Below are positions 10,704 through 60,439 of a stretch of 63,141 nt of DNA, one piece after another. This DNA comes from Alicyclobacillaceae bacterium I2511 (GTDB taxonomy: Bacteria; Bacillota; Bacilli; Alicyclobacillales; Alicyclobacillaceae), in assembly GCA_003584005.1 (NCBI GenBank), contig QXHL01000015.1, forward strand, positions 1-63,141, given 5' to 3'. The notes beneath the pieces are model-generated. The model was not told the origin of the DNA, searched no databases, and saw nothing but the letters and a program-made list of their open reading frames with translations. Position 1 is the stretch's first letter. The number at the start of each line of letters is the position of its first letter. A program made the translations under genes and the position numbers.

Positions 10704-10820
10704 TCAGGAACCCAGCTAGGCTTGCCCACGTCGCCCGAAAGGTCTTCCTTAGTGCTGCTTCCGTCAGGACCTGACACGGTTCGGGAGTTTTCGACGCATG
10801 GGACCCGGATGGGTTCCTGA
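10704..10820 (-). ncRNA. ffs: Signal recognition particle RNA, small bacterial type (4.5S-like)
   Basis: RNA scaffold for Ffh in co-translational targeting. The minus strand carries the near-invariant apical loop GTCAGGTCCTGACGGAAGCA followed by GCACTAAGG, closed by long complementary ends (TCAGGAACCCA and TGGGTTCCTGA). About 110-117 nt, i.e. the short form without an Alu domain; many Bacillales have a ~270-nt form, so this is noteworthy. It lies between tadA/tRNA-Ser and dnaX, like scr in B. subtilis. Confidence 0.92.
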
Positions 10821-10848
10821 TTGCAAAACACGTAACTCGTAAAAAAGA

Positions 10849-10938
10849 TGGCGGAGAGAGTGGGATTCGAACCCACGAGCCCCGAACAGGGCTACTCGCT
10901 TTCGAGACGAGCTCTTTCGACCCCTCAGACATCTCTCC
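10849..10938 (-). tRNA. tRNA-Ser(CGA)
   Basis: 90 nt with encoded CCA. Acceptor stem GGAGAGA/TCTCTCC, anticodon arm CTCGTCTCGAAAGCGAG giving anticodon CGA, a long class II variable arm (AGCCCTGTTCGGGGCT), and T-arm GTGGGTTCGAATCCCAC. A T6 run follows directly (10841-10846). The 5' end overlaps the last 14 nt of tadA. Confidence 0.95.
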
Positions 10939-50963: not shown

Positions 50964-53729
50964 ATGTTAATTGGCTCTAGCCAGTCCTCAAAATTCAGGC
51001 ACATTACTCAACTCATCATCTCAAGCCCAGGTTTGCGCCAAACTTTTGAACAAGTAGTTAATGCAATATCAGATCATATTGTTCGGTGTAACTCAATTGG
51101 AATCTACCTACCGCAAACAGATGGCACCTTTCGTGGTTTTGTGGGCAAACCTGCCATTATTAATGGGATTACCCTGGATCAAATGGTGGTGAATCCGGAT
51201 ACGGATCTCCTTGCGCGGGAGATTATTGAAAACAATTCAATCATATATATTCCAGATACATCCGCAGACAACCGCCCAGATCCAGGACCGGTTGAGATGT
51301 TTTCAATTAAGTCCTTGCTGGGTTTGCCCATAAGCTTTGAAGGCGACTTATTTGGACTGCTTTTTTTGTTTAATTCAGGTTTTGTTCTCAAACTAAGTCA
51401 GACGGAGATACGTTCTATTGAAGCCTATGTTCAAATGGCTGCACTCGCCATTCGAAACTTGTATTTGACTAGCCAAAAACAATTATTACTAGACGCGACA
51501 CGCGATTTTTCCATCTGTAAAACGACGCAAGCCGTAATTAACACCTGTTTTAACTATATGGAAAAGGCAGTATTTAACTCAAATATCGGTGTCCACATCA
51601 GCGACGGTCATGGCAGTTTTGTGCCCACGAAACTAAGCGAAAATAGTTCCTGGACCGAAAATGATTGGAAACATGTTCACAGCAAAGTGAAAGTTGACTT
51701 TGCCGAAGACCCCGTATTTCAAGAAGTTGTTCATACAAAACGACCCATTTTTATTCCCAATGTTGAAGAAGACCCGCGCCCCAACAAACAGGCCTGCAGA
51801 CAGTTTGGAATCAAAGGTTTGTTTATTATGCCTTTGGTAGCTCTGGGAGAGGTATTAGGGACTGTCGCCATTGTGAATCTTGGAACGAATGAGTCTTATA
51901 CTCAATCGGAACTTCTGCTTGCCGAATCGCTCGCAAATGCCACAGCATCTGCCCTTTCCAACTTGTCCCGCATGGAACGCTTAGAGCAAATTGTTCGACA
52001 ACGCACAGAAGAAATTCGCGAAAAAAATGTAGAACTCCAACGGGTAGTACAACGCCTAGAACAACTTAGTCACGAAAAAAACTTAATTTTAAATACCGTT
52101 GCTGAGGGCATCTATGGGCTAGATACGAACGAAGTGATTACGTTTTGCAATTCATCTGCAGCAGAAATGGTAGGCCTTCAGGTTGAGGATATTGTGGGTA
52201 AGCCTGGGAGCGAAGTGTTTTGTCAAGAAACTGTATGGCTGAGAGACTTTTTTAAGCTATCACAGCTCCCATCCACGCAAAACAGCACTGTGACAAATGA
52301 AGCCCTGTTGCGAAAAAACGGAAGTAAATTTCTGGTGGATTTATCTAAGACGCCTATTGTGGAAAACGGTGTAGTTGTGGGCTCAGTGGTGACTCTTAAG
52401 GATATTACCGAAAAAAAAAGGTTGGAGATGCAAATTGAGTATCAAGCTTTTTATGATACCTTGACCGGTTTACCAAATCGATATTTATTTAATCAAGAAT
52501 TAACTAACACTTTATTTCAGGCAGCAAAGCTTGACCAGCAGACCGCTGTCATGTTTGTGGATTTAGACCAATTTAAAATTATCAACGATACACTTGGCCA
52601 TGATCAGGGAGACTTAGTCCTCAAACAAGTGGCCCACCGCCTTAGCAATTCCATACGAAGCTCCGATATTGTTTCCCGTCTCGGCGGGGATGAGTTTACA
52701 ATTTTGCTTCATCCTGTTACAGGGGAACAAGAGGTTAAAGGGATCATCAAAAAAATTCGTGCTGAATTAGGTAACCCCTTTGTATTCGACGAAAATGAAT
52801 TTTACGTGAAACCCAGCATAGGCGTCAGTTTGTGTCCGCAAGATGGTCAAGATGCGGAAACCCTTATAAAACATGCAGACATGGCAATGTACCGTACGAA
52901 ACTGAACGGTAAAACCTTTGAGTTTTATCAGTCTTCCATGACCAACCCAATGGTCAGCCGAGTATCCTTAGAGCGAGAATATGAGAAAGCACTTGAAAAC
53001 AACGAATTTACACTTTTTTATCAACCACAAATTAATATCCAATCAGGTCGGATTGTGGGATTTGAAGCACTCATTCGCTGGTTAAATCCTCAAAAAGGCC
53101 TACTACTCCCTGCTGATTTCATCCCTCAAATTGAAAAGACACAAATGATGATGCCCTTGGAAGAATGGGTCATTCGCACCGCATGTACACAGGCGAAACT
53201 GTGGAATGCCACCCATCCCCCGCTGCGCATTTCTGTAAATTTATCTGCAAGTCAGTTCGACAACATACATTTTGTGGACAGGGTTCATCAAATTCTCAAA
53301 GAAACTGACCTTATGCCTAACCTCCTGGAATTAGAGCTGACAGAAAGCATTATCTTACAAAATACAGATCACGTGACCAACACTTTGCAGCGCTTAAAAG
53401 ATATTGGTGTTAGAATTTCAATTGATGATTTTGGAACAGGCTATTCCTCATTGGCCTATTTACGCCACTTTCCAATTCACACCCTTAAAATTGACAAGAT
53501 GTTTCTTGAAAAGATTGATACTGACCCTAAGAATATTGCCATTGTTTCAGCCATCATAACGCTTGCGCGCAATCTTGGCTTGAAGTCCATCGCGGAAGGA
53601 GTGGAAACTCAGGAGCAAGTAACGATTCTTCAAGATCAGGGCTGTGATGAGGTACAAGGGTACTTTTACAGCAAACCATTGCCCGCCAAAGCAGCAGAAG
53701 AGTTGCTGCAAAGAATGAAAACAGACTAA
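50964..53729 (+). CDS. GAF-GAF-PAS-GGDEF-EAL signalling protein
   Basis: 921 residues, cytosolic. Two GAF-like domains (about 15-175 and 185-335), a coiled coil (about 340-375), PAS (about 380-490; YGLDTNEVITFCNSSAAEMV), GGDEF (about 495-650; intact SRLGGDEFTILL) and EAL (about 675-915; FEALIRWLNP, ELTESIIL, DDFGTGYSSLAYLR, EGVETQEQ). Both catalytic signatures look intact, so it could make and break c-di-GMP, possibly switched by the sensory domains. The two GAF domains may bind a small ligand. ATG 50964 with GGAAGG upstream. The next gene starts 18 bp later. Confidence 0.93.
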   Translation: MLIGSSQSSKFRHITQLIISSPGLRQTFEQVVNAISDHIVRCNSIGIYLPQTDGTFRGFVGKPAIINGITLDQMVVNPDTDLLAREIIENNSIIYIPDTSADNRPDPGPVEMFSIKSLLGLPISFEGDLFGLLFLFNSGFVLKLSQTEIRSIEAYVQMAALAIRNLYLTSQKQLLLDATRDFSICKTTQAVINTCFNYMEKAVFNSNIGVHISDGHGSFVPTKLSENSSWTENDWKHVHSKVKVDFAEDPVFQEVVHTKRPIFIPNVEEDPRPNKQACRQFGIKGLFIMPLVALGEVLGTVAIVNLGTNESYTQSELLLAESLANATASALSNLSRMERLEQIVRQRTEEIREKNVELQRVVQRLEQLSHEKNLILNTVAEGIYGLDTNEVITFCNSSAAEMVGLQVEDIVGKPGSEVFCQETVWLRDFFKLSQLPSTQNSTVTNEALLRKNGSKFLVDLSKTPIVENGVVVGSVVTLKDITEKKRLEMQIEYQAFYDTLTGLPNRYLFNQELTNTLFQAAKLDQQTAVMFVDLDQFKIINDTLGHDQGDLVLKQVAHRLSNSIRSSDIVSRLGGDEFTILLHPVTGEQEVKGIIKKIRAELGNPFVFDENEFYVKPSIGVSLCPQDGQDAETLIKHADMAMYRTKLNGKTFEFYQSSMTNPMVSRVSLEREYEKALENNEFTLFYQPQINIQSGRIVGFEALIRWLNPQKGLLLPADFIPQIEKTQMMMPLEEWVIRTACTQAKLWNATHPPLRISVNLSASQFDNIHFVDRVHQILKETDLMPNLLELELTESIILQNTDHVTNTLQRLKDIGVRISIDDFGTGYSSLAYLRHFPIHTLKIDKMFLEKIDTDPKNIAIVSAIITLARNLGLKSIAEGVETQEQVTILQDQGCDEVQGYFYSKPLPAKAAEELLQRMKTD

Positions 53730-55473: not shown

Positions 55474-55519
55474 AGGTGGCCCCCCGCTGCTGATGAGCGT
55501 GCAATAGGGGGGGTCACCT
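55474..55519. terminator. Terminator-like hairpin between the TPP gene and the peptide operon
   Basis: AGGTGGCCCCCC (55474-55485) pairs with GGGGGGTCACCT (55508-55519), 12 bp with one G-U, followed on the plus strand by TTTGATCT. It lies between convergent transcripts and could serve either. Confidence 0.5.
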
Positions 55520-55561: not shown

Positions 55562-55651
55562 CTATCGTTTTAATGAACCAGGTACAGCTTTGACAAGTTG
55601 GGTTTTTCCATTCAATTTTACGGGGGAAATTGGATTTTGAATGATTTTCAT
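55562..55651 (-). CDS. 29-residue peptide, candidate RiPP precursor
   Basis: ATG 55651 is preceded by a strong AAGGAGGATGACCCA and follows the radical-SAM gene by 57 bp on the same strand. The product begins MKIIQNPISPVKLNGK and ends TQLVKAVPGSLKR. It has no Cys, Trp, Tyr or Phe, so the usual thioether or aromatic crosslinks cannot form; Asn, Gln, Lys, Thr, Ser, Val, Leu and Pro are the possible targets. The close position behind a SPASM maturase and the strong ribosome-binding site make it a likely substrate. No similar known precursor comes to mind. Confidence 0.6.
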   Translation of the reverse strand: MKIIQNPISPVKLNGKTQLVKAVPGSLKR

Positions 55652-55708
55652 TGGGTCATCCTCCTTGTTAATTAGAAATTCATGTCACTTCATGGACATG
55701 GAATCTAA

Positions 55709-57028
55709 TTACAATTCTCCACTTCTTACAATCCCCTGAAGGGCTTGATGGATCCGCTTTTTTTCAAATGGGCATGGGCGTTCTTTCACCCACATGCGAT
55801 AAAGCGGGCAATGATCCCCCTGGCATGAGGGACGAAAGTAGCACCGTTGACATTCTTTATCTTCTTCAGCGTGTGGATTGACCCACTGGGCCATTTTATC
55901 ATAATCCACTTCCATTGTTCCATCTGAAAATAATTGCCCGACCTGATTAATCTCTTCATCCAATGCACAAGTACATTTATGAAGCGCCCCATTGGCACCC
56001 ACAACGAGGGAATAGGGCTTGGCTGCATAGCAAACAGAGCCCCCAGGACCTAAACTTTGTTTCACCACAGAGGCTAGATGTAATTTTTCTGATATGGCCG
56101 TGTTCGCGAAGTCCCATAATTTCATGTTTGCTAAGCGATCTTCACAAATTGGTAGCCTGTCATCCTGGGCCCCTCCCCAACGCCCAACTGGCTGAAACAT
56201 CACCTGAAAACGCGAGTCCGCAGAAAACTCCAGGCCCAACTCCTGTATAAATTCAGGAATAAACTCGAGATTATGATGATCAAAATTTATTCGCAAATGA
56301 ATCTCAAAATCCCCAGGGAGATTTTTAATTTGTTTCAAGTTTTCTAAAATGCGTTGAAATGTCCCTCCTCCCCCCATTAACTTTCTTCTCTCATCATGAA
56401 CTCTTTCAGGGCCATCCAGGGTAATCATCCAGCGTTGAATACCCACTTGTAATAACTTTTGGAATAGTTCAGTATCCAGGAAATAACCATTTGTAGAAAT
56501 ATCCGCTGAATAATCCACCCCATATTTTCGCGATTGAAGTAAGAATTCCTGGGACAACTCTAAAATCACTTCCGGTGCTAATAAGGGTTCGCCTCCAAAC
56601 CAGCTAACGGACATTTCCCTTAAAAAGCGAGCCTGTTCCCCCACAAAATGTTTGAGGCCTGAAATAGTTTCTAGGGTCATTTTCCCTCGTTCAAAATTTT
56701 GATAGCAATAGGTACAGCGGAAGTTGCATTGCTCTGTTGGCAGAAGCACCAAATGAAGGATATCCGTACGAAATCTTTGAGCTTCCAAAAAACGTACCCT
56801 TTGTATTTCATCCACTTCATTGGATACCAGAAAACCTAGTTTTTTAAGAGATTCTTCAAGAGTTGATTCTTTCTCTTCCTTTGTACGACTTAGTGCAGAG
56901 AGGACAAACGGCTTTTCCAAGGATGAAAAAACAGCCATTCCTTGTGTATATGTATTATAAACCAGCAATTCCCCCGTCTCTAAAGGTGTTAAAACATTGT
57001 ATTTTGAAGGACCCCAGGCTCTCTCCAT
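55709..57028 (-). CDS. Radical SAM/SPASM peptide maturase
   Basis: 439 residues. The N-terminal ~90 residues (SKYNVLTPLETGELLVYN) are the conserved leader region of SPASM peptide maturases, probably for substrate recognition. The radical-SAM core has CX3CX2C at Cys101, Cys105 and Cys108 (TEQCNFRCTYCYQ) and WFGGEPLL. The C-terminal SPASM region is Cys-rich (KCTCALDEEIN, CQRCYFRPSCQGDHC, RPCPF), for two extra FeS clusters. ATG 57028 has AGAGAGGCGAG upstream. Transcribed with the 29-residue peptide gene. The family makes crosslinks, thioethers or epimers in ribosomal peptides; which reaction occurs here is unknown. Confidence 0.9.
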   Translation of the reverse strand: MERAWGPSKYNVLTPLETGELLVYNTYTQGMAVFSSLEKPFVLSALSRTKEEKESTLEESLKKLGFLVSNEVDEIQRVRFLEAQRFRTDILHLVLLPTEQCNFRCTYCYQNFERGKMTLETISGLKHFVGEQARFLREMSVSWFGGEPLLAPEVILELSQEFLLQSRKYGVDYSADISTNGYFLDTELFQKLLQVGIQRWMITLDGPERVHDERRKLMGGGGTFQRILENLKQIKNLPGDFEIHLRINFDHHNLEFIPEFIQELGLEFSADSRFQVMFQPVGRWGGAQDDRLPICEDRLANMKLWDFANTAISEKLHLASVVKQSLGPGGSVCYAAKPYSLVVGANGALHKCTCALDEEINQVGQLFSDGTMEVDYDKMAQWVNPHAEEDKECQRCYFRPSCQGDHCPLYRMWVKERPCPFEKKRIHQALQGIVRSGEL

Positions 57029-58838: not shown

Positions 58839-59876
58839 TTAACTAATACCATCAAATTTCGTATCATATCCTTTCAGCTTGTATATCAGAATTGCCACCA
58901 TCCAACTCGTTAACATAATACTAATAATGATATACCCCAGATGTGAAAAACTCATATTCTGGAGGTGACTCCAGAACGTCCCCTGGATGTCCATCTCTGT
59001 GGCTACAACTTGCATTGTTTCTACTGTACCTATGATAAAAGCGACAAAAACGGAAATACTAGTAATGGACAGATTGTAATATATTTTCCGAATTGGTTTC
59101 ATAAACGCCCAATCGTAGGCATAGAGCATGAGAACACCATCAGAGGTATCAATAAGCGTCATTCCCGCAGCAAAAAGCAGCGGCAGGATAAGTATGTGAA
59201 TCAGCGGCATCCCCTTGGCAGCTAGGCCAGCCGCTATTCCCAACATAGTAACTTCACTGAGCGTATCAAAACCTAATCCGAATAAAAAACCAACAAAAAG
59301 CATTTGCCAGCTATGTGTTATAAGATTAAAAAGTTTACCGAATATTCGACTCATCATACCCCTTTTTAGTAAAAGTTCCTCGATATCGTTATCATTTTTG
59401 ATTTCCCCATTTTTTATTGCCTTGAATGCACCATAGATGCCAATCAATATAATTAAATTGACGAACGCTATAAGATATAAGAAGAAAGCTGATATTCCCG
59501 TGCTAAACGTATTCAATTTATCAAAAAAGTGCATATTACTGGTAAGAAATTTAGCGGTTATCGCAAGCCCCATGGCCATTAGAATAACCACTGTCGAATG
59601 CCCAATTGAAAAGAATAAGCCCACACCTGCTGGCCGACCCCCATCGTTAATCAACTTTCTGGTGGTATTGTCAATAGCCGCAATATGGTCTGCATCTGCG
59701 GCATGTCTTAGCCCAAAAACGAAGGCTAGCAATCCCCAGGGCACGAGGGCGGGGACTTGTTTAGAAATAAAGCCAAAAGTAATCCATACCACTATATTGA
59801 ATAAAAGTAAAATAGCATATATCGATGTTATTTTAGCCCACTTGGGCTTAGTAAAGCTGTTAGGTATTTTAGACAT
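58839..59876 (-). CDS. NiCoT-family nickel/cobalt permease (HoxN/NixA type)
   Basis: 345 residues, about eight helices. The family signature in helix 2, RHAADADHIAAIDNTTR, is intact (HAxxxDH metal motif), with LGFDTLSEVTML and GMTLIDTSDGVLML as further family motifs. AAGGGAG 8 nt upstream of ATG 59876. Lies downstream of a cobalamin riboswitch, which points to cobalt rather than nickel as the main substrate: B12 would shut off cobalt uptake. Confidence 0.93.
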   Translation of the reverse strand: MSKIPNSFTKPKWAKITSIYAILLLFNIVVWITFGFISKQVPALVPWGLLAFVFGLRHAADADHIAAIDNTTRKLINDGGRPAGVGLFFSIGHSTVVILMAMGLAITAKFLTSNMHFFDKLNTFSTGISAFFLYLIAFVNLIILIGIYGAFKAIKNGEIKNDNDIEELLLKRGMMSRIFGKLFNLITHSWQMLFVGFLFGLGFDTLSEVTMLGIAAGLAAKGMPLIHILILPLLFAAGMTLIDTSDGVLMLYAYDWAFMKPIRKIYYNLSITSISVFVAFIIGTVETMQVVATEMDIQGTFWSHLQNMSFSHLGYIIISIMLTSWMVAILIYKLKGYDTKFDGIS

Positions 59877-60135: not shown

Positions 60136-60224
60136 CAGGACGACCTCAATACATAGGTTGTGACCCTCTCAGGCACACGACTGTATCGAGCCCCGTCCCC
60201 AACCCCCGTGGGAATCAACAAGGC

Positions 60225-60425
60225 ACACAGTCTGGCAGGTCTTCGGACTTGGACGTCATCTGTGAAGGTAAGCCTTCCCCAAATCTGTTTTGAGTGGCTG
60301 GCGGTCTGTCAAACAATCGCCTGAATGCCTTCACATCGTTCCACACCGCGGCGGGGCCGTTCCGGATTGACACCGGATTCCCTTTTCATTCACATGCATC
60401 CGCATGTGAACACCAGACTTACAAA
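60225..60425 (-). ncRNA. Cobalamin (B12) riboswitch
   Basis: The minus strand carries the conserved blocks in order: GGGAATCCGGTG with AATCCGGAACGGCCCCGCC (core J6/3 side), then GGGGAAGGC and GATGACG, and the B12-box end AAGTCCGAAGACCTGCC. This order and wording match the cobalamin aptamer. It lies upstream of the short ORF and the NiCoT permease, so AdoCbl should reduce their expression. Confidence 0.88.
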
Positions 60426-60439
60426 GTCATAATAAAGTG

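Follow-up and report, generated by a model that had tools for sequence, protein, structure and literature searches.

A Cysteine-Free Peptide Family Beside a Clade of Radical SAM/SPASM Maturases: A Probable Two-Gene RiPP Cassette

A radical SAM/SPASM maturase and the short ORF that follows it probably form a self-contained two-gene RiPP cassette, with one domain of the enzyme for the leader and another for the conserved C-terminal core. We infer leader binding, the site and type of modification, and the role of the product as follows. The N-terminal RRE-like domain of the maturase would bind the leader of a 27–31-residue peptide, and the radical SAM/SPASM part would modify the motif K-[SA]-[VA]-P-G-[NSH]-[LIM] at its C-terminus, in a reaction that would centre on K21, P24, and G25. 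For some members of the family, an FNR-type box points to induction when oxygen is absent. The near-constancy of the core fits a signal or some other internal function better than a fast-evolving bacteriocin. The enzyme type is already known; we rate the substrate family and its probable chemistry as not known before.

The gene pair in the window

The cassette lies in the window, the whole stretch of 63,141 nucleotides that was analysed, and comprises the following features.

55709–57028, minus strand: radical SAM/SPASM maturase, 439 aa (ORF without internal stop; Pfam Radical_SAM 8.9e-18; AF2 model pLDDT 92.1)
55562–55651, minus strand: precursor peptide ORF, 29 codons/29 aa, MKIIQNPISPVKLNGKTQLVKAVPGSLKR (translation; family of 39 distinct peptides)
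55660–55666, minus strand: Shine-Dalgarno site AAGGAGG of the peptide ORF, 8 nt before the ATG (sequence)
55622–55651, minus strand: leader part, peptide residues 1–10, window copy MKIIQNPISP, family M[KR]x[LIV]RPAxSP (alignment)
55571–55591, minus strand: core motif K21-A-V-P-G-S-L27 (K21, P24, and G25 in 39/39 aligned peptides)
56765–57028, minus strand: predicted N-terminal RRE-like leader-binding fold, about residues 1–88 (separate AF2 model, pLDDT 85)
56705–56728, minus strand: CX3CX2C radical SAM motif, C101/C105/C108, residues 101–108 (present in 100/100 aligned maturases)
56426–56428, minus strand: Met201, clade mark (alignment of maturases)
56114–56116, minus strand: Trp305, clade mark (alignment of maturases)
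56144–56146, minus strand: Cys295, N-terminal to the SPASM region (51/51 in the clade, 18/49 outside)
55772–56032, minus strand: SPASM region C333–C419 (7 Cys, each in 98–100% of 50 peptide-bearing rows)
55475–55518, minus strand: G+C-rich hairpin 3' of the peptide ORF (fold of a 131-nt stretch)

The sequence confirms the initial annotation, which had described a maturase with CX3CX2C and SPASM cysteines and, 57 nt downstream of its stop, a 29-residue ORF with an AAGGAGG site. The span of 55562–57028 given there for the cassette does hold both genes, but its coordinates cover two genes, not one. The SPASM cysteines are residues 333, 352, 393, 396, 402, 407, and 419; these seven are conserved at the sequence level, and the two auxiliary clusters to which they belong are predicted. 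Radical_SAM is the sole Pfam model matched by the maturase. Its best NCBIfam model, TIGR04463, gives 221.3 bits, below the cut-off of 525, and the Clo7bot maturase model TIGR04334 gives 172.6 bits, below a cut-off of 600. The 131-nt stretch that contains the hairpin 3' of the peptide ORF folds at −41.3 kcal/mol (z −3.61), and the hairpin is absent from the list of terminator-like hairpins. Neither flanking gene, one for a TPP enzyme and the other for a VTT-domain protein, is related to the pair.

Within its own 3.48-Mb genome, the peptide ORF is the only match to the family profile up to E 10 (E 3.6e-10; the 39 rows that make up the profile include the window peptide itself). Related maturases are accompanied by ORFs of this kind as well: a 52% identical relative in a genome of the same family (G031) has MRILRPSVITTKKTNAGQLVKSVPGNLNGSK 13 nt downstream, and a 54% identical relative carries MKVIRKPVSPIGATTTGQLVKSVPGNLSASR. 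Together, the sole profile match and these ORFs place the window ORF beyond chance.

The peptide family and its pairing with one maturase clade

The peptide is found at 56 loci, or 52 after removal of four duplicates, and these yield 39 distinct sequences. Its hosts include Geobacillus, Parageobacillus, Anoxybacillus, Cytobacillus, Neobacillus, Robertmurraya, Schinkia, Evansella, Texcoconibacillus, Paenibacillus, Cohnella, Ammoniphilus, and Proteiniclasticum, and the clade spans Bacillaceae, Anoxybacillaceae, Paenibacillaceae, Alicyclobacillaceae, and Clostridia. Lengths range from 27 to 31 residues. The peptide pattern in the initial annotation needs correction: the family motif is K-[SA]-[VA]-P-G-[NSH]-[LIM], and the Q-L-V that precedes it occurs only in a minority. 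M1, K21, P24, and G25 are invariant in the alignment of the 39 distinct peptides, and R5, G17, S22, V23, and L27 nearly so; the invariance of K21, P24, and G25 is partly by construction, since the collecting pattern required K-[SA]-[AV]-P-G-[NSH]-[LIM]. The window copy diverges in both leader and core (Q5, A22, S26).

A tree of 100 maturases (quick method, midpoint root) places the 50 enzymes with a peptide and that of L046 in one group with an SH-aLRT of 100. Two further peptide loci, L154 and L168, are not in the tree and bring the clade from 51 rows to 53 members. Because loci were collected through the maturase, the telling count is that 52 of these 53 adjoin the peptide, and this bears out the expectation that a conserved short ORF follows the maturase homologues. 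The only clade member without a pattern-fitting peptide is L046 (Anaerobacillus), which has the clade marks and a contig that stops 272 nt past the maturase with no peptide in between. When the motif was left out of the search and only leader and Shine-Dalgarno site were used, the motif peptide was recovered at 49/53 loci together with just two further ORFs, both on the opposite strand.

Pairing also holds across genome samples. Among named genomes, 139 maturase relatives were confirmed after a pattern-based scan; the best 80 were kept, and 42 of these loci have the motif peptide. The class-level sample of 398 genomes has 25 maturase places in 21 genomes (E 1e-60 or better). The peptide is present in 11 of the 398, every one among those 21; in all 11 it co-occurs with a clade maturase, and in this sample it is never found apart from one. 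Nine of the other ten maturase-bearing genomes have enzymes outside the clade in the tree, and the maturase of the tenth (L164) lacks Met201 and Trp305. The phylum sample yields the peptide in 1/398 genomes, that of the window, so the family is sporadic. Each of 12/12 carrier genomes has one strong profile match, other matches being at E 0.045 or weaker.

The peptide is under purifying selection. Of 740 pairs from 39 loci with a 28-aa member, 354 give a value of dN/dS, with a median of 0.20; the remaining pairs are saturated or undefined, and pairs are not independent. Differences at codon positions 1, 2, and 3 number 3032, 2014, and 6200, counted in pairs that differ at 35 nt or fewer, and four codons are used for each of S22, V23, P24, and G25. 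An SD-like site precedes the ORF in 52/52 loci under a broad pattern, and the peptide starts −53 to +387 nt from the maturase stop, with a median of 22 in 51 parsed loci. Gaps are widest at L030 (349) and L168 (387), the maturase frame of the latter being broken. At clade loci the peptide lies on the strand of the maturase; L154 was misparsed in the gap count, yet the locus view places its peptide on the same strand. The pairing of 52/53, codon-level selection, co-occurrence, and the predicted RRE-like domain thus strongly support the RiPP pair first proposed from the window.

An ORF arisen by chance, or a decayed relic beside an ordinary thioether maturase, is accordingly a highly improbable reading. 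Its sole points are the divergence of the window copy and the region upstream of the window maturase, which has no FNR-type box (best site, 3 mismatches). Selection, family-wide conservation, pairing, and the single strong copy per genome contradict it for the family. Phage or plasmid origin was also rejected: the 56 viral relatives are at most 38% identical over the best piece and none has a motif peptide, while the one viral pattern match for the peptide (L189) is a chance match at a locus without a maturase. Plasmids searched with the family peptide gave no match. NCBIfam and Pfam models match none of the 39 peptides at E 10 or better. The strings KSVPGN, SVPGNLK, and KSVPGNL were not found in the text of open papers; figures and supplements lie outside that text, including a supplementary figure of 22 pathways in PMC9062424 that is a possible home of the family. 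TIGR04463, rSAM_vs_C_rich, Clo7bot, 'CefB radical SAM', and geopeptide were likewise not found in open papers.

The maturase and the chemistry of the core

Two residues mark the clade. Met201 is present in 51/51 clade rows and in L154 and L168, while the 49 outside rows have Gln in 46 and Met in none; Trp305 is present in the same 51 rows and two loci and in 0/49 outside. Cys295 is retained in all 51 clade rows as opposed to 18/49 outside, several of the latter adjoining Cys-bearing ORFs, and it could act as a fourth Aux I ligand or as an H-atom donor. Cys354 was rejected as a clade mark (17/50).

The nearest fold to the maturase model is that of CteB (Z 27.1, rmsd 4.7, 387 aligned), with anSME (26.4), ChlB (25.4), and TigE (24.1) next and SuiB (19.6), SkfB (19.6), EpeE (16.7), and PqqE (14.8) lower. 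CteB is also the best PDB sequence match, although anSME comes within 1 Z of it as a fold. The separate model of the N-terminal domain has TigE (Z 7.9), TbiB1 (7.5), MccB (7.1), and PbtF (6.1) as leading matches; these are RREs or RRE-bearing RiPP enzymes, all with Z under 8, and suggest an RRE-like domain. The predicted combination of RRE, radical SAM, and SPASM parts is that of CteB and the SCIFF ranthipeptides, and also of sactipeptides. Read by eye, the alignment of the family profile to CteB and anSME indicates that the extra Aux I cysteine of anSME has no partner in the cassette maturase, as in CteB. CteB has an open Aux I site, and the linker of SuiB supplies a cysteine (PMC6231123, available text).

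Despite this similarity in architecture, the substrates differ. CteB, SCIFF, and sactipeptide enzymes act on cysteine, and cysteine occurs in 0/39 distinct cassette peptides, which removes the core donor of a sactipeptide or ranthipeptide thioether. The only aromatic residue in the family is Trp3 of the leader, in 4/39 peptides; the core has none, and a cyclophane or other aromatic-crosslink RiPP was rejected with it. The product is thus not a thioether or cyclophane RiPP, and composition upholds, across all 39 peptides, the view that such crosslinks are excluded within the core.

The families TIGR04463, CefB, and Clo7bot, with Cys-rich precursors, are the best NCBIfam relatives over nearly the whole protein; CefA is annotated as a Cys-every-fifth peptide. 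Six clade members score 208–228 bits against the TIGR04463 cut-off of 525, and the three Cys-type relatives tested fail alike at 206–210 bits, so this failure does not single out the clade.

What was first said of the remaining chemistry stands in part. A non-thioether, non-aromatic reaction would indeed be needed, but the list of epimerisation, beta-scission, and unusual links was incomplete, lacking the formation of cyclopropylglycine from valine. Likewise, lysine, one of the sites suggested, is fully conserved, but proline and glycine accompany it rather than the suggested Asn, Gln, and Val, which points to sites other than these three. K21, P24, and G25 may be sites of reaction or of recognition. 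Linkage of the Lys21 side chain to Pro24 or Gly25 is the product that we favour, at somewhat short of an even chance. Other oxidation of the core, cyclopropane formation included, is less probable, and alpha-carbon epimerisation slightly less so again; the remaining probability falls to an unforeseen reaction. In order of preference, we place a Lys21-centred crosslink before oxidation at P-G-N. The argument for Lys-centred chemistry is residue conservation, and conserved residues may instead serve recognition.

Lysine has a precedent as a reaction partner in streptide, in the form of a Lys-Trp crosslink. We take a K-X3 spacing to be common to streptide and the cassette core, but the latter has no Trp. 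SuiB, the streptide enzyme, resembles the cassette maturase as a SPASM enzyme with an RRE (PMC6231123, available text).

Epimerisation would make the pair similar to that of EpeE, a Bacillus radical SAM enzyme, and its epipeptide, whose modified site has no cysteine. L-residues such as Val23 or Leu27 would become D-residues through alpha-H abstraction and the return of H from a cysteine, for which Cys295, kept throughout the clade rows, is the candidate donor. This reaction works without Cys or aromatic residues in the substrate, epimerases rely on a critical enzyme cysteine (PMC8326336, available text), and EpeE is within fold reach of the model. Its Z of 16.7 is nevertheless far below those of CteB and anSME, and Cys295 is not clade-specific. 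Epipeptides also undergo export and leader cleavage according to the available text of PMC8326336, but genes for these are not widely shared near the cassette. We regard an epimerase pair as unlikely.

Still less likely is the conversion of valine to cyclopropylglycine, or a similar C-C bond inside one aliphatic side chain. TigE, which we take to be an enzyme of the TvgB kind that forms cyclopropylglycine, matches the model over residues 1–439 and comes first, though tied, for the N-terminal domain; a literature search for TigE found no paper. Val occupies position 23 in 37/39 distinct peptides. However, the other two (three loci: L040, L042, and L075) have Ala, which lacks gamma carbons; Val23 is thus unlikely to be indispensable, and this weighs against cyclopropylglycine there. 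The precedent itself is the radical SAM enzyme TvgB, which makes cyclopropylglycine from Val on a peptide site that is Cys-free and non-aromatic (PMC9062424, available text). Its substrate consists of TVGG repeats in Halomonas, whereas the cassette has a single K-S-V-P-G-N and TVGG-type repeats are absent from the aligned peptides.

Returning to the favoured Lys21 linkage, a bolder version of it envisages a new RiPP type, a proposal we consider doubtful. Lys21 would replace a lost cysteine, approach an open Aux I site or else a carbon radical on Pro24 or Gly25, and form an N-C or C-C bond within K-S-V-P-G. The small cyclic product, near-unchanged across Bacillota and made via FNR under oxygen limitation, would act as a signal or cofactor and not as an antibiotic.

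Possible regulation, surroundings, and proposed origin of the cassette

For Bacillus cereus, Table 1 of PMC8151001 gives TGTGANNNNNNTCACA as an FNR consensus. A box of the type TGTGA-N6-TCACA with at most one mismatch lies within 250 nt before the maturase at 16/52 peptide loci versus 25/407 control regions, which precede other mechanically called ORFs of the same loci; the p-value of 9.8e-7 is optimistic since the loci are related. In 20 rounds of dinucleotide shuffling the count averaged 0.55 and never rose above 2, compared with 17/52 actual loci (L046 included, misoriented L154 excluded). The box is found at 0/50 loci outside the clade, a weak control with many G+C-rich genomes. Genera that carry it are Cytobacillus, Ammoniphilus, Anoxybacillus, Parageobacillus, Geobacillus, Evansella, Robertmurraya, Texcoconibacillus, Cohnella, and Anaerobacillus. 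Rex, CcpA, and CtsR boxes show a smaller excess than FNR, the Rex half-site resembling that of FNR, and the rest no excess by eye.

Neighbouring ORFs with a minimum length of 60 aa were clustered over as much as 5 kb on either side of 43 loci; no cluster occurs in more than 10/43, and a conserved neighbour was rejected. The largest clusters are a generic ABC-ATPase (10 loci), NrdD (9), and three Paenibacillus clusters (7 each). Among these clusters, part of whose members carry an annotation, neither a protease nor an exporter family recurs widely, which agrees with the absence of such adjacent genes first seen in the window. Some contexts are anaerobic: NrdD is near the cassette in 9 Paenibacillus and Cohnella loci (three Pfam-confirmed), 7 Paenibacillus loci have an ScdA/hemerythrin (RIC-type) gene, confirmed in one of them, and in L075 the genes for cytochrome c552 and ResB lie 5' of the cassette. 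An MFS-PAS protein near L054 may be NarK-like. Apart from such contexts, the cassette stands alone.

A GGDEF/EAL-type cluster comprises 5 loci, the window's included. The window protein (50964–53729, plus strand) is 3 kb from the cassette, and EAL-type ORFs lie within 5 kb in L018, L021, L028, and L029; such genes are common, so the proximity may be chance. Elsewhere in the window, the gene of a NicO-family permease (58839–59876, minus strand) is preceded upstream by a cobalamin riboswitch (60217–60432, minus strand; Rfam 105.2 bits); the permease falls below the NCBIfam NicT cut-off and may be a B12-controlled cobalt transporter. A small SRP RNA gene (10711–10938, minus strand) adjoins a tRNA-Ser gene.

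The sister maturases suggest where the cassette came from. Outside the clade, 39/49 adjoin a small ORF with cysteine, up- or downstream, and 10 have none that is clear (by eye, with no chance control). When 25 eye-picked Cys-type peptides were compared with the family leader profile, 11 fitted with shuffle fractions no higher than 0.013, a further one had 0.029, and the other 13 exceeded 0.03. Cysteine ORFs beside sister maturases and a leader style common to part of them suggest that the clade swapped its core, and a cysteine core was likely lost. A support of 99 unites the clostridial copies L075, L040, and L042, from Proteiniclasticum and a Clostridia bin, with 12 Bacillaceae copies, and the position of these clostridial copies within a mostly-Bacilli clade suggests transfer between classes.

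These same precursors bear on whether the small protein is a substrate at all. It could be a conserved partner or regulator of a maturase that acts on another peptide elsewhere, a reading that the lack of a widely shared protease or exporter nearby and a core unusually constant for a RiPP would suit. Yet sister maturases keep Cys-bearing small ORFs alongside, 11 of the 25 Cys-type peptides have a similar leader, and the length, Shine-Dalgarno site, and position of the peptide are those of a precursor, which leaves this reading with little probability.

Relatives outside the clade show further arrangements. L072, L076, L077, L079, L090, L174, and L176 have a small ORF resembling acyl carrier protein (by eye) by the maturase and a Cys-rich small ORF nearby, and actinobacterial L057, L059, L061, and L064–L066 have acidic peptides of 24–25 aa upstream of it, whose only Cys is the last residue. 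Tandem near-identical short precursors ending in NNCNC or NCNC follow the maturase in L164 and L165. The Deinococcus plasmid relatives L003/L191 and L004 have an oxidoreductase gene directly 5' of the maturase, annotated as LLM-class in one and alkane monooxygenase in the other, with lantibiotic dehydratase genes near one. On a Methylomagnum plasmid (L190), a TIGR04463 maturase lies between genes for a Cys-every-fifth peptide and a RiPP radical SAM C-methyltransferase.

Should the two genes act as precursor and maturase, they would represent a new radical SAM RiPP family whose core has none of the usual reaction partners, and its reaction would be either unfamiliar or a rare one in a new host. 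A 28-residue substrate with a constant K-P-G, thermophile versions in Geobacillus and Anoxybacillus, and no widely shared accessory genes would make it an easy model. The sister groups with Cys cores, some with similar leaders, offer a natural comparison for chemistry switching, and the putative FNR link hints at a function under limited oxygen.
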